Source: Bacteroidetes bacterium GWF2_38_335 (lineage in GTDB: Bacteria; Bacteroidota; Bacteroidia; Bacteroidales; GWF2-38-335). Taken from it: a stretch of DNA of 64,000 nucleotides. How positions within the stretch are numbered: position 1 is the stretch's first letter; the number at the start of each line of letters is the position of its first letter. Where the stretch lies: NCBI GenBank assembly GCA_001769535.1, contig MEOH01000015.1:1-64000 (forward strand), in the 5' to 3' direction. The translations under genes were made by a program, and so were the position numbers. Below, piece by piece: positions 4,478 to 52,902 of the stretch. The notes under the pieces were generated by a model, which was not told the DNA's origin, did not search any database, and was given only the letters and a program-made list of their open reading frames with translations.

Positions 4478-7400
4478 TTATTCTAAAGCAATCCTTTTTA
4501 CACCCGAATTTTTAACTGTTATTACCTTCAAATAATATACCCCCCTCGCCAAATCCTTAAACTCAATCTCCTGAATGTTTCGCCGGGACTCATTTCTAAA
4601 CAAAGCAATTTTTCGGCCATCTGCGGAGAACACCTCTGTCATTAGTATTTCTTCTGTAGCGATGATTTTCACACTTGTTGTGGCGGGGTTCGGACTGATG
4701 GTTATTCTTTCGTTTTCAATTGTCTCTATCCCAACCGGTACCACCGTCACCAAAACCGATGCTGTATCAGAACATCCGTTTTCATCGGTAACCGTTACAG
4801 TATACAAAGTTGTTTCAGTTGGCGATGCCACAGGGTTTGAAACTGTGCTGCTGCTCAGTCCGGCTGACGGTGACCATGTGTATGTCACCCCTCCCGATGC
4901 ATTTAATATTGTGCTTCCTCCGATAGTTATTGTCACATCGTCTGAAACAGTAACAGCAGGCAAAGGATTTACTACAGCGGTAACCTCTGCTCTTAAACTT
5001 ATACAGCTTTTTTCTCTTACTTTCCAGTCAAAGAAATAATAATAGAAATCCAACTCCTGCCCTGCCACATTCGATCCCGTCAAGGAAACCAATCCGGGCA
5101 CCGTATACGGATAGGTCGGCGAGCCATCGTTGATTCTGAACAAGTCAATCAATGAACCGGTTACTTTTAAATAATACCCACTGTAGGGTGCTATGAAGAA
5201 GCCCAGCGGTACAACCTGCTCTCCTGAACCAATATAAACCGTGTACGAATGAATAACATTTCCTCCATCGCCGTCAAGAACCTCAATAGTCCTGTTTCCT
5301 GCCGATGCCGAATATACTTTCACTGATTCCAATGTAAAAAAGTCATAGGCATCAAAAAATATCCCGCGCAAATCATTGCTGTTGAAATTTCCTCCTGATC
5401 CGAAGGTATTGTCGGGCGGACCAACACTATATTGCATTCCAACAACCTCTTCTTCCACAAACCAGCTTGTGGTGTTATCCACAACCGGATTATATGCTCC
5501 TCCCGTTGCAACAACCATTCCGCCTGCCTCTGAGTCATACCATGAAAGTAATCCGGCGCTGCCACTTGTTGCTGATAAAAATGCCATCTCACCCGGACAA
5601 ACTTCATCTCCATTAACAAACGGGGCATCAGGACGATTAACGGTGACATAAGAATATTTTGTAATACTGTCTGCACCGGCGGCATTTTCTACTACAAGCT
5701 TTACAGTGTAAACACCGTTTTCACTGTAAACATGCAAGGGACTCTCAACATCCGAGGTGGTGCCATCGCCAAAATCCCATGTCCAGGTATCCGGACTAAA
5801 TACCGAATTATCGGTAAATGTTACCTGACCGGTGCAGGTTTCGGTTACATTGGCTGAAAAATTTGCTACCGGAGGAAATGATACTTCGTTTGCAGAACTC
5901 AGAATTATATCAGATATCATTATGGCTCCAACTGCCGACTGGTTAAACAAAAATCTGATCTGACTTACAGATGTCATGTCAATCCCCGTAAATGATGCCA
6001 GATCAATTTTAATGGTATTGTGAAGCAACTTTGGCAAAGTATTGTTTAAAGTGCCGGGAGGAGCAAAAAGCACTGAACTGTGACTGCTCACTGTTTGTGT
6101 GGCAGTGGCTCCGTAACTGTCAATCAATTGCACACTGAAATTCAGATCTGCCGTTGCGGTATAATCCTCAAAATTCACTCCTGCCCTGAACTGCAAAGCA
6201 TTAAACTGTGTAAGGTCATTAAACCCGTCGGGCAAGGTATTGGTATAATTGTCGGCTGCCGAATTCCATCCAATCTGCAACTGCGATAGACTTAACCCGC
6301 TTGATCCATGCGGTTCCTGAGCCGTTCCACCGCTCAGGCAATAACCACTGCAAATGCCGTAATTTACAAGTCCTGTTTGTCCGGCCGCACCCATAAGTGT
6401 GTTCTCTGTTTCGCAGGATGTACTTGTCATTCTATTCACATCCAACCGTTTTGAATTTGCCGGATGATAGGACATAAACACCTGATCAGAATTTAATAAT
6501 GATGATACCGGGGGCACAACATCATCGGTTTCCAAAATTGGAGCAAATTGAGTCTCCTCGCCTACGTACCTTCTGAAAAACGCACATAAATAGGCTGTTA
6601 ATGCTGCCTGCTGGGTTGGCGGATCAAGACGTCCGTTGCCCGATACACTTTCACTGCAATAGGGATCAGTTCCCATCCAGTCTTCATAATCCCAGTCATC
6701 TGCTGAGCCGGCAGGAAATGTTGCCGGAGTCCATACCGTGTTATAATAGTTATGATTTGCCCCCATCATCAGCACCGAGTGCTTGGGTGCTTCGTCATTG
6801 GGATCAAGATATCTTGTGTCGTCATAATAATGAATGCCCTGAAGGTTCGAAACATCTCCATCGCAGTATGGCGCTACGTTCATCAAAGGAATATTGACAA
6901 GGGTTTTTCTTGCAAAATCAACCGGAGCAAGGGTTAAAACTGCTTTTACTCCGTATGGGCTTCCCTGTTCAATATTCAGCAAGGCATGCTCAACAACCCC
7001 TTCGCCTCCTCTTGAATGTCCCATGGTTCCCACTCTGGAAAGATCAAGTTTTCCCACAAACAATGTTCCGAATGGTCCGCCACCCACAGTATTATATGTA
7101 TTCCACAAATCAAGATGGTGCTGCACCAATTCGCCCCTTGCGCGCATGCCGTAATCGGTTACATCATTATCTGTTGCGTTTATGGCATTGGCCGAAACTG
7201 ATATCACAATATAACCATGACTGGCCATTTTTTGAGCCAGATAGTCATATCCCTGATAACTTGGAATCATTTCATCTCCGCCTGAACATGGCCATGAACT
7301 GTTGGAACTGTTGTTCCCCGGGTCATAGCATGTTTCATGTCTGCCGTGAAGAAAAACAAGCACAGGAAAGGGACCTGATGACATATCCGAAGGATAATAC

Positions 7401-7597
7401 ACCCTGCCGATCACTTCCACATCATCGGGAAAAGTGGGCGGATCAAAAGCCAGGTCACCGAGATCATAATCCTGTTGCAACACGGTGTACGGACCGTTTA
7501 ATCCCGGGTCGGGTGTGGTTTGACTGAATGCAATATTACAAATAACGATTAAGCAAAATGTTAAAACATGTGCGCTTATATATGTGATTCTTTTCAT
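4478..7597 (-). CDS. Large secreted alpha/beta hydrolase (chlorophyllase/PET-hydrolase-like fold) with PKD and Ig-like domains and T9SS signal
   Basis: I chose the ATG at 7597 (MKRITYISAHVLTFCLIVIC), which gives 1039 residues and leaves a 10-base gap to the upstream gene; a TTG at 7633 would overlap that gene. After the signal peptide, residues about 40-350 form an alpha/beta hydrolase. It has an oxyanion-type segment (VLVFLHGRHE) and the nucleophile elbow GHSRGGEG; the serine is the predicted nucleophile. It resembles dienelactone-hydrolase/chlorophyllase-type esterases with Cys pairs. A C-terminal sandwich-like region follows, then a PKD domain (about 585-655, WTWDFGDGTTSDVESPLHVY), two Ig-like segments (VCPGEMAFLSATSG; ILNASGGVTYTWSPSAGL) and a T9SS sorting domain (ITISPNPATTSVKI...GVYYLKVITVK). 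Substrate is unknown; extracellular ester hydrolysis is inferred. Confidence 0.85.
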   Translation of the reverse strand: MKRITYISAHVLTFCLIVICNIAFSQTTPDPGLNGPYTVLQQDYDLGDLAFDPPTFPDDVEVIGRVYYPSDMSSGPFPVLVFLHGRHETCYDPGNNSSNSSWPCSGGDEMIPSYQGYDYLAQKMASHGYIVISVSANAINATDNDVTDYGMRARGELVQHHLDLWNTYNTVGGGPFGTLFVGKLDLSRVGTMGHSRGGEGVVEHALLNIEQGSPYGVKAVLTLAPVDFARKTLVNIPLMNVAPYCDGDVSNLQGIHYYDDTRYLDPNDEAPKHSVLMMGANHNYYNTVWTPATFPAGSADDWDYEDWMGTDPYCSESVSGNGRLDPPTQQAALTAYLCAFFRRYVGEETQFAPILETDDVVPPVSSLLNSDQVFMSYHPANSKRLDVNRMTSTSCETENTLMGAAGQTGLVNYGICSGYCLSGGTAQEPHGSSGLSLSQLQIGWNSAADNYTNTLPDGFNDLTQFNALQFRAGVNFEDYTATADLNFSVQLIDSYGATATQTVSSHSSVLFAPPGTLNNTLPKLLHNTIKIDLASFTGIDMTSVSQIRFLFNQSAVGAIMISDIILSSANEVSFPPVANFSANVTETCTGQVTFTDNSVFSPDTWTWDFGDGTTSDVESPLHVYSENGVYTVKLVVENAAGADSITKYSYVTVNRPDAPFVNGDEVCPGEMAFLSATSGSAGLLSWYDSEAGGMVVATGGAYNPVVDNTTSWFVEEEVVGMQYSVGPPDNTFGSGGNFNSNDLRGIFFDAYDFFTLESVKVYSASAGNRTIEVLDGDGGNVIHSYTVYIGSGEQVVPLGFFIAPYSGYYLKVTGSLIDLFRINDGSPTYPYTVPGLVSLTGSNVAGQELDFYYYFFDWKVREKSCISLRAEVTAVVNPLPAVTVSDDVTITIGGSTILNASGGVTYTWSPSAGLSSSTVSNPVASPTETTLYTVTVTDENGCSDTASVLVTVVPVGIETIENERITISPNPATTSVKIIATEEILMTEVFSADGRKIALFRNESRRNIQEIEFKDLARGVYYLKVITVKNSGVKRIALE

Positions 7598-50371: not shown

Positions 50372-51460
50372 ATGGATATAAAAACTCAGAATATATTTGA
50401 AAAAATCAAAACCGGCAAAAGAATTAATGCCGACGAAGGTTTATTTTTATATGAGCACGCCGATTTGGCTGAACTGGGATTAATGGCAGACTTTATAAAA
50501 AGACAAAAATTTGAAAATAAAGTTTTTTTTAACCGGAATTTCCACCTTGAGCCAACAAATGTATGCATTCATGGTTGCAAGTTCTGTTCATATTCAAGAA
50601 AACAGGGTGAGCAGGGTTCATGGGAGCTTTCAATGGAAGAACTGCTGGAAACTGTAAAAAAATATGCCGACAAACGCGTTACAGAAGTTCATGTTGTCGG
50701 AGGCGTGCACCCAGATCGCGATCTGAATTATTATTGCCAATTAATTGCCGGAATAAAATCCATTTTGCCTGAAATTCATATTAAGGCCTTTACTGCAGTT
50801 GAATTAGACTATATGTTTAAAAAAGGAAAAATTTCAGCAGAGGAAGGACTGAAAAAGTTAAAAAACTGCGGATTAAATTCAATTCCGGGCGGAGGTGCCG
50901 AGATTTTCGATCCACAGATAAGGAAAAAAGTCTGTCATGAAAAATCCGATTCCACCACATGGCTTGCAATACATCAAAAGGCACATTTATTAGGAATACC
51001 ATCAAATGCCACCATGCTTTACGGTCATATTGAAGACTATTCTCACCGCATTGACCATCTCCAAAAATTAAGAGAACTTCAGGACTTAACTAATGGGTTT
51101 AATGCATTTATTCCATTAAAATTCAAAAATAAAAACAACCTGCTATCGGGTATTAGGGAAGTAAATTACACAGAGGAGTTAAGGAATTATGCTGTTTCGA
51201 GAATTTTCCTTGACAACATCCCTCACATTAAAGCATACTGGCCAATGTCGGGTAAGGATTTAGCCCTGCTTTCCTTATCATTTGGAGCAGATGATATGGA
51301 TGGAACCATTGATGACTCAACCAAAATTTATTCAATGGCAGGTTCAGAGGAGGCGAAACCCACATTGACAAGCAGTGTAATGATAAGGATTATTAAGGAT
51401 GCAAGGCATACACCTGTAGAAAGAGACTCGGAATACAATGAATTACAGATTTTTAGCTAA
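50372..51460 (+). CDS. mqnE: Aminodeoxyfutalosine synthase (radical SAM)
   Basis: Radical SAM enzyme of the futalosine pathway of menaquinone synthesis; it joins the enolpyruvyl ether of MqnA's product with S-adenosylmethionine-derived adenosine. The 362-residue protein carries the cluster motif CIHGCKFC (Cys65, Cys69, Cys72) after FHLEPTNV. The GGVHPDRDLNYYCQL segment and FTAVELDYMFKKGKISAEEG also match the family. The end QIFS and the SFGADDMDGTIDDSTKIYSM motif distinguish MqnE from MqnC and CofH. The first open frame upstream is the YD-repeat gene. MqnA, C and D are not in the window. Confidence 0.92.
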   Translation: MDIKTQNIFEKIKTGKRINADEGLFLYEHADLAELGLMADFIKRQKFENKVFFNRNFHLEPTNVCIHGCKFCSYSRKQGEQGSWELSMEELLETVKKYADKRVTEVHVVGGVHPDRDLNYYCQLIAGIKSILPEIHIKAFTAVELDYMFKKGKISAEEGLKKLKNCGLNSIPGGGAEIFDPQIRKKVCHEKSDSTTWLAIHQKAHLLGIPSNATMLYGHIEDYSHRIDHLQKLRELQDLTNGFNAFIPLKFKNKNNLLSGIREVNYTEELRNYAVSRIFLDNIPHIKAYWPMSGKDLALLSLSFGADDMDGTIDDSTKIYSMAGSEEAKPTLTSSVMIRIIKDARHTPVERDSEYNELQIFS

Positions 51461-51572
51461 AATGATTTTTGAATTTGCATGATTTTTAAACTCAATAATC
51501 CAATAAAAAACCATATTCAATGGGTAAAAAAAGATTATTAGTCACTTTTTTGATTTTTTTAACAATTAAGAC
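51461..51572. other. AT-rich gap between mqnE and the non-coding unit
   Basis: No reading frame, and no T-rich hairpin of terminator quality was seen for mqnE. The region ends at the promoter of the non-coding transcription unit. Confidence 0.4.
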
Positions 51573-51603
51573 TTGCATATCCGTTTTTTATTTCTTACAT
51601 TTG
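51573..51603 (+). promoter_or_regulatory. Consensus promoter of an apparent non-coding transcript
   Basis: TTG at 51573-51575, a 20-base spacer and TACATTTG at 51596-51603 exactly match the Bacteroidota consensus. It is one of the best promoters in the window, yet no significant reading frame follows. Confidence 0.7.
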
Positions 51604-51608
51604 TCATG

Positions 51609-51804
51609 TAATCATCATTGATTTTTTTAAAATTATTTCGTTAGTCAATTTAATTGATTATTATTCGGGCGAAAGCCACAAAATATTAAAACACACGTTC
51701 TTTTAAAAAATGTTCTCTTGCGGCGTACCTCTCTTTAAAGACTGACACTATTCTCTCTATTATTCTACATAGCTATTTATTTGCCGCAAGGGGACTTTTT
51801 TTTT
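51609..51804 (+). ncRNA. Candidate structured non-coding RNA (6S-like or novel)
   Basis: Bounded upstream by a consensus promoter and downstream by an intrinsic terminator. The 3' hairpin pairs GTTCTCTTGCGGC (51712-51724) with GCCGCAAGGGGAC (51783-51795): 13 bp with two G-U pairs, a 58-nt C/U-rich internal region, then T9. The 5' half has a small GGC-GAAA-GCC tetraloop hairpin (51668-51677). The longest open frames are short (for example 11 codons from 51710, MFSCGVPLFKD), so protein coding is unlikely, though a leader peptide is possible. Length about 196 nt fits 6S RNA, but I could not confirm the 6S central bubble. The mature RNA might begin later. It lies downstream of mqnE and opposite to apbE. 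Confidence 0.55.
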
Positions 51805-51864
51805 GTAGCAAGTCCTTGTTACGAAAACAAAATGAAATATCACTAAAGAAAAACAATCAGATTA

Positions 51865-52902
51865 TTACTCCTGTTTCAGCATTTTTTTAATGCCATCAGT
51901 CATAAAAACTTCATTTTTTGACTTTTCAGAATAAATTAGGTACACCTCAATGCCTTTATGATTTTTCACAAACTCCCTGGTTTTTTCAAGTCCCAATACC
52001 ATAAAGGCTGTTGCGTATGCATCAGCAGACATGCAATCTGCGATCATAACAGTTGCGCTTAACAAATTGTGCTTCACAGGGTAGCCGGTAGCCGGATCAA
52101 TGGTATGGCTGTACCTGATGCCGTCTTTTTCATAAAACTGACGATAATTCCCGGAAGTTGCTATTGACACATCGGTCAAAGAAAGAATGGCCTGGGTTTG
52201 TCGGTTTTCATAACCTGAGTTGTCAAGGGGTTTATCTATTCCAACCGACCATTTTGCCCCACCCGGTTTTGTTCCCGATGCCCTAACCTCTCCTCCTATT
52301 TCAACAATAAAATCTTTAATGTCATTTTCCAGAAGAAAATCTGAAATCACATCTACGGCATAACCCTGGGCAATTGCATTGGCATCAAGTTTCATTTCAG
52401 GTGTTTCTTTGGTAATTTTCCCATTTACCTCCTTGATTTTTTTGTAACCCACCAGTCCCTTTAAACTATCAATATTTAATCTGTCAACATCTACACTATC
52501 AATGTGTTTTGTTTTTTTTGCTCCAAAATTCCATGCATTGACAAGCGGTGCAACGGTTATATCAAATGCGCCATTTGTTTTTTCTGAAATTTCCATTGAT
52601 TTTCTGAAACAAACCAGAAAATAATTGTCTGAAGTTTGATCAAGTTCATTGCGGTTGATTTTTGATATCACAGATGCTGAATCATAGACAGAAAGAGATT
52701 TGTTAAAATCATCAAGAATGGAATTTATCTCTTTTGAAAAATTTCTGTTTTCCTTATCGAAATATTTAACATGCAGCTGAGTACCCTGAGCAAAACCATC
52801 AATTACTATTGGATTCAAAGTTTCGCTTTCTTTATTAGCATTTTGGCTGCATGAAAAGAAAAACAGCGAAATGAAAAGTGACAGAAGAATTTTATTGATC
52901 AT
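51865..52902 (-). CDS. apbE: FAD:protein FMN transferase ApbE (lipoprotein)
   Basis: Attaches FMN through a phosphoester to Thr/Ser of Nqr/Rnf subunits in the periplasm. The 345-residue protein has a lipoprotein signal peptide ending FFFSC (Cys at about 18). The ApbE motifs are visible: FAQGTQLHVKYF, FDITVAPLVNAWNFG, LDANAIAQGYAVDVISDFL, VEIGGEVRASGTKPGGAKWS, SHTIDPATGYPV and MSADAYATAFMVLGLEK. Those surrounding SADAYAT and the Asp/Thr bind Mg and FAD. The obvious targets in this genome are RnfG and RnfD encoded 31 kb away. It has its own consensus promoter 18 bases before the ATG. Confidence 0.94.
   Translation of the reverse strand: MINKILLSLFISLFFFSCSQNANKESETLNPIVIDGFAQGTQLHVKYFDKENRNFSKEINSILDDFNKSLSVYDSASVISKINRNELDQTSDNYFLVCFRKSMEISEKTNGAFDITVAPLVNAWNFGAKKTKHIDSVDVDRLNIDSLKGLVGYKKIKEVNGKITKETPEMKLDANAIAQGYAVDVISDFLLENDIKDFIVEIGGEVRASGTKPGGAKWSVGIDKPLDNSGYENRQTQAILSLTDVSIATSGNYRQFYEKDGIRYSHTIDPATGYPVKHNLLSATVMIADCMSADAYATAFMVLGLEKTREFVKNHKGIEVYLIYSEKSKNEVFMTDGIKKMLKQE

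Follow-up and report, generated by a model that had tools for sequence, protein, structure and literature searches.

What, if anything, is transcribed from the gap between two converging genes at positions 51461-51864 of the 64-kb window, that is, of the whole stretch of DNA that was analysed? Upstream of the gap, on the + strand, lies a gene for a radical SAM protein with a CofH/MqnC C-terminal region (50372-51460), and downstream, on the − strand, a gene of the ApbE family (51865-52902); both were assigned using the ORF list and Pfam, and both converge on the locus. A Peptidase_C25 gene is also present in the window (Pfam); together with the promoter type and the Por_Secre_tail domains of several scanned genes, it is the basis for assigning the lineage to Bacteroidota. 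A sequence-only reading of the gap had pointed to an exact TTG-N20 promoter, the lack of a useful reading frame and a 13-bp hairpin with T9 around a C/U-rich, mostly unpaired interior of 58 nt, and had proposed either a divergent 6S RNA or an undescribed structured RNA.

The elements themselves are as described. On the + strand, TTG at 51573-51575 is followed after a 20-nt spacer by TACATTTG at 51596-51603, which makes a candidate promoter of the sigma-ABfr type (TTG-N20-TACATTTG, 51573-51603), recognized from the sequence, motif statistics and the Bacteroidota consensus TAnnTTTG and TTTG as given in excerpts of PMC7366714. The predicted transcript of ~195 nt would run from 51609 to 51804, its start placed by the −7 box and its end by the T-run. 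Behind the promoter comes an AT-rich part with small hairpins (51604-51694; folding, blastn and flank comparison), and then a 3′ module of ~110 nt (51695-51804; blastn, alignment and covariance model). The module comprises ACGTTCTTT ahead of the stem (51695-51703), the left arm GTTCTCTTGCGGC (51712-51724), the 58-nt C/U-rich loop (51725-51782; folding and alignment), the right arm GCCGCAAGGGGAC (51783-51795) and T9 (51796-51804), which closes an intrinsic-terminator-like hairpin (sequence and hairpin-pattern scan). The stem has 13 pairs, two of them G-U (sequence, folding and pair counts); the centroid structure keeps the loop interior mostly open, and the minimum free energy (MFE) structure puts two small helices there. 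The gap holds no ORF of at least 40 aa starting from ATG, GTG or TTG.

The hairpin is far beyond chance, whereas the promoter motif alone is not. A search of both strands of the 64 kb for a hairpin followed by T (core of 11 bp including 6 or more G-C pairs, loop of at most 80) finds a single place, in four overlapping registers, against 0.05 hits per 64 kb in 20 simulations of Markov-1 sequences. The motif TTG-N19-21-TAnnTTTG occurs 11 times on both strands of the window (6.9 ± 2.4 expected), and TAnnTTTG by itself is unenriched (86 versus 88 expected); by arithmetic from these statistics, the ~235 bases that separate the module from the upstream gene should hold ~0.01 full promoter matches on the + strand. 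Folding of 51610-51805 gives z = −3.1 and folding of the module (51695-51806) z = −3.8, with none of 200 shuffles equally stable in either case. A GC-rich stem followed by a T-run is what defines an intrinsic terminator, and the hairpin has both, with an unusually long loop.

6S RNA is characterized by a closing stem formed by its 5′ and 3′ ends, with a central bubble. In both the MFE and the centroid structure the 5′ ~90 nt of the unit is unpaired with the 3′ end, and the terminator is the sole long stem; the ends form no closing stem, and there is no central bubble of the 6S type. Searching the locus with Rfam models, as the sequence-only reading had suggested, did not bring out a 6S RNA: no family reaches its gathering score anywhere in the window, and none of the nine matches at E up to 10 in 51500-51870 is to a 6S model. 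One Rfam match, to Lnt (51787-51853; 23.7 bits, gathering score 55, E 0.25), reaches no further into the hairpin than its end and was set aside. The 6S and 6S-Flavo models (RF00013, RF01685) find nothing elsewhere in the genome that carries the locus either; the single 17-bit match to a 6S model lies inside a gene that, going by a motif, we take to encode uracil-DNA glycosylase. This absence proves little, since the named controls detected in the genome-wide 6S searches include no Bacteroidota. 6S RNA has been reported in Bacteroides (PMC7366714, in excerpt). Nor can it be argued against the 6S reading that another locus already supplies the genome's 6S; the empty search with two Rfam models counts for this reading, as do a promoter, a terminator and a length near 195 nt. 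The likeness to 6S (RF00013, RF01685) is one of approximate length, but the architecture differs, no Rfam 6S model matches the locus, and the copy number differs as well, with three copies that share their 3′ part only. We therefore abandon the divergent 6S RNA, which we consider extremely improbable.

The new result of the follow-up is that the 3′ ~110 nt is a repeated module. Using 51595-51815 as a blastn query against the own genome (G000), we found two further full copies; the genome also holds one remnant of the 3′ half and one 25-nt fragment. The first full copy, C16a (C16:247553-247665), is 86% identical over C16:247559-247665 (query bases 101-210), and the second, C2a (C2:354834-354951), 80% identical over C2:354839-354951 (query bases 101-213), so that the matched part of the window runs from 51695 to 51804 or 51807. 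The alignment of the three full copies has in common ACGTTCTTT, identical in all of them, the inner part of a GC-rich stem, most of the loop (57-62 nt long across copies) and a T-rich tail. Each of the three folds more stably than nearly all or all of its shuffles: 200 of 200 are beaten by the window copy and by C16a, 199 of 200 by C2a. The 5′ ~90 nt of the window copy is absent from the other copies, and comparison of its flanks with theirs gives scores at shuffle level; its homology to them stops at the module edges. The flanks of C16a and C2a (L021, L022) resemble each other in loose scoring only: 8/300 shuffles score as well upstream and 1/300 downstream under loose scoring, and 71/300 and 63/300 under strict scoring. 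Over the 220 bases upstream, C16a and C2a have partial promoter matches at best, covering 6/9 positions at C16a and 7/9 at C2a, and C2a has a complete −7 box without TTG. A full sigma-ABfr promoter match is thus seen at the window copy only.

C16a sits in a region without a listed ORF of at least 80 aa. C2a (L022:6835-6952) is flanked by divergent genes and shares 30 bases with the beginning of a minus-strand ORF that was called from a TTG start. That ORF has no in-frame ATG for ~90 residues, and its match to Por_Secre_tail stays below threshold (22.6 bits against a cut-off of 27). Among the scanned genes this domain exceeds its curated cut-off in two (L022:2986-4569 and L023:1120-3522) and falls below it in three others. 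The remnant, C16b (C16:246058-246095, BLAST E 2.6e-6), corresponds to the 3′ half of the module. On the minus strand of the same contig, around L021 ~6108-7520, ~560-base repeat units starting GCGCACTGGCCCATAATAAAAAATTTCCC were noticed by eye; they run head to tail after C16a, with a short N run inside the array, and end at the truncated C16b. The 25-nt fragment (C2:213813-213837, or L023:3814-3838) is 96% identical to the left arm and loop start. It precedes by ~290 bases a minus-strand gene that carries a Por_Secre_tail domain; among 60 relatives, only the own genome matches the surroundings of this stretch, which may be a fragment, a target site or a chance match. Rfam models gave no gathering-level match in the three further stretches that surround this fragment and the other copies.

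A covariance model, R1, was built from the three full copies and scores 129-141 bits on them, by construction. C16b reaches 22.4 bits, which is no better than the antisense strands of two full copies (22-23 bits), and its assignment therefore rests on BLAST. A fourth R1 match in the own genome lies at C1:198525-198579 (27.4 bits).

How has the module changed between copies? Counted over the three full copies, 35/36 stem cells pair, and of 12 stem pairs seven are invariant, three vary on one side and two have changed on both sides. When the partner is slid by 1-3 columns, 42-67% of the cells pair in place of 97%, a control biased towards the structure, which was read from these same sequences; with three sequences only, between 54 and 144 of 500 shuffles do as well on the pair measures. 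The stem changes are mostly pairing-preserving. Between the window copy and C16a, the stem differs at 7/24 positions and the loop at 2/57 (Fisher p = 0.002). The corresponding figures are 7/24 and 8/58 for the window copy and C2a (p = 0.12), and 3/24 and 6/57 for C16a and C2a (p = 1.0); gapped columns (one, four and five in the loop, none in the stem) were excluded. Only one of the three comparisons clearly shows the loop changing less than the stem, which is suggestive of a constrained loop without making the case firm.

Inspection by eye of both strands revealed no frame that is open in all three copies. The window copy has one frame open across the hairpin, with no ATG, GTG or TTG start there. 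We rejected a small protein encoded by the module: 14 residues common to the window copy and C16a lie in a frame that has no start codon and that C2a breaks.

Outside the own genome we found no convincing homologue. R1 was run on four overlapping genome sets (149, 395, 393 and 41), all with stricter filters that lose weak matches. Among the 149 order genomes, only the own one has a match at E ≤ 0.1; at the same threshold the set of 393 order genomes yields two, the own one and G591 (29.5 bits). At E ≤ 1, matches occur in 27 of the 395 class genomes and in 10 of the 41 relatives, the own genome included in both counts, and none outside it convinces. The best outside match, in G374 (C29:19763-19834, locus L027; 38.5 bits), has an E of 4.8e-4 per genome, and with 395 genomes ~0.2 such matches are expected by chance. 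The matching sequence, from a distant member of the class, is a short terminator that resembles the left arm and loop start of the module. Some likeness is seen at TCTCTTTgAAaG, no 9-mer is shared with the loops, and we rejected it as a homologue, although this does not disprove it. Twenty-six candidate loci were inspected (L033, L042, L044 and L050 left out) and 13 compared by 9-mers (L173 and L174 left out). Five of the 13 (L028, L167, L168, L171 and L175) have 9-mers in common with the loops, and the shared runs were judged too short for homology.

A blastn search with 51595-51815 gave some match at E ≤ 1 in 59 of 60 relatives; outside the own genome the best one (G051, E 8.9e-5) covers 37 nt within the AT-rich 5′ part. 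By blastn, the module matched no phage or plasmid record. Exact patterns hit 17 stretches of genome_contigs (GTDB species; one pattern) and, with two patterns, one and 75 stretches of viral_contigs, all dismissed by eye as chance in collections that may omit the own genome; the 17 and the single viral one score at best 18.5 bits with R1, and the 75 were only read. The same-genus genome G001 has no module copy at E ≤ 1; the genes there that are related to the upstream gene (62%) and to apbE (57%) lie on different contigs. With no convincing homologue in another genome, there is no cross-species evidence of selection. Conservation in relatives, whose absence the sequence-only reading had accepted as refutation, is thus lacking in other genomes and is found among the own-genome paralogues only. 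In the literature searched, by description since the sequence itself is not searchable there, we found no account of the hairpin element.

The window feature is a real one, a lineage-restricted family either of hairpin RNAs, with expression predicted, or of terminator repeats. The main rival to an RNA family is a MITE- or REP-like repeat, small and non-autonomous, which would have spread in the genome and would terminate transcription wherever it landed, the loops being alike only because the copies are young. Copies at unrelated places, flanks of the window copy unrelated to the others, the truncated C16b adjoining a repeat array, and the restriction to one genome among those searched all fit such a repeat, as does C2a overlapping a called gene start as if inserted. 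Repeats of the MITE and REP type have terminal inverted repeats and target-site duplications. By eye, no terminal inverted repeat was seen outside the stem, and the one candidate for a flanking duplication was CCCTTTAT, which stands both before and after C16a. Also against a repeat are the lack of any transposase domain in the 19 ORFs scanned with Pfam, a subset drawn from the window and the other loci, the mostly pairing-preserving stem changes and the one comparison in three in which the loop evolves more slowly than the stem. We regard a spreading repeat as a serious possibility, but would not bet on it.

The hairpin could also be an ordinary bidirectional terminator between converging genes, the promoter match arising by chance or driving a short non-functional transcript. 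Its position between convergent genes agrees with this, as does the lack of any other terminator-like site in 51400-52000 (the scan was limited to loops of 3-8 and so did not list the long-loop hairpin itself). Read on the minus strand, the hairpin has A and T6 behind its stem and folds at z = −2.6, with 4/200 shuffles equally stable. But a terminator has no need of a 58-nt loop, the same loop and ACGTTCTTT recur at two other loci, and C2a lies between divergent genes. A plain bidirectional terminator would explain the window copy alone and not the shared loop, and we think it improbable.

The reading we favour, at about even confidence, is a lineage-restricted, multicopy paralogous sRNA family predicted to carry a single-stranded C/U-rich terminator loop. 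The undescribed structured RNA of the sequence-only reading thereby gains partial support, from the recurrence of the 3′ module, the mostly pairing stem changes and the lack of a frame open in all copies. In the window copy, the putative sigma-ABfr-type promoter would start an intergenic RNA of ~195 nt, which would end at the strong intrinsic terminator, whose stem would hold the 58-nt loop open. The parts kept would be the loop and ACGTTCTTT ahead of the stem. By analogy with known sRNAs, the loop would most likely act in trans, pairing with A/G-rich mRNA or docking an RNA-binding protein, and the differing 5′ parts may give each paralogue its own expression control. The full promoter match before the window copy speaks for an sRNA family. 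Against it, C2a overlaps a called gene start, which is odd for a free-standing sRNA, and paralogues in one genome can be alike merely through youth. A crude target search with the reverse complement of one loop segment (up to 3 mismatches) found the three copies and three other sites, no excess over the 11 of the control. One short stretch complementary to the loop lies at a start codon (L157; 88% of 24, E 0.2), a match no better than chance.

More tentatively, and with rather more doubt than trust, we suggest an undescribed class of Bacteroidota sRNAs in which a C/U-rich terminator loop of 57-62 nt might serve as the regulatory surface, the stem being kept for pairing only and the 3′ module spreading onto different promoters and 5′ parts.

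Two known systems are comparable in kind, and we claim homology to neither. According to excerpts of PMC11697453, FopS of Bacteroides thetaiotaomicron, which blocks translation starts, forms with GibS a paralogous, multicopy non-coding family in Bacteroidota with sigma-ABfr promoters; 9 of its 14 members are intergenic, like the window copy. Several similar copies without a conserved frame mark families of this kind, and the module has three full copies with, by eye, no such frame. In the same excerpts (compared by description, not sequence letters), FopS RNAs are ~65-70 nt long with a 5′ seed and 14 members; here the RNA would be ~195 nt, the terminator hairpin and loop are what is kept, and there are three full members. 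A second Bacteroides paralogous family described there (BTnc020, BTnc054 and others; six members, likewise compared by description) is also a small sRNA family, but adjoins transposases or invertases, whereas the ORFs scanned here include no transposase domain. LhrC1-5 of Listeria monocytogenes is a multicopy sRNA with C/U-rich single-stranded motifs that bind the target, one of them in the terminator loop (PMC4132741, in excerpt). It belongs to an unrelated phylum and, as described there, has UCCC motifs at three sites, two stem-loops and a shown target.

If expressed, the module would add a small paralogous sRNA family in a lineage with few close relatives (the analysis covered a single genome of the same genus), and would provide a case in which conservation falls on a long terminator loop and not on the 5′ end. 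As a repeat, the module would show how ready-made terminators spread in a genome and can mimic sRNA genes to a reader of the sequence.
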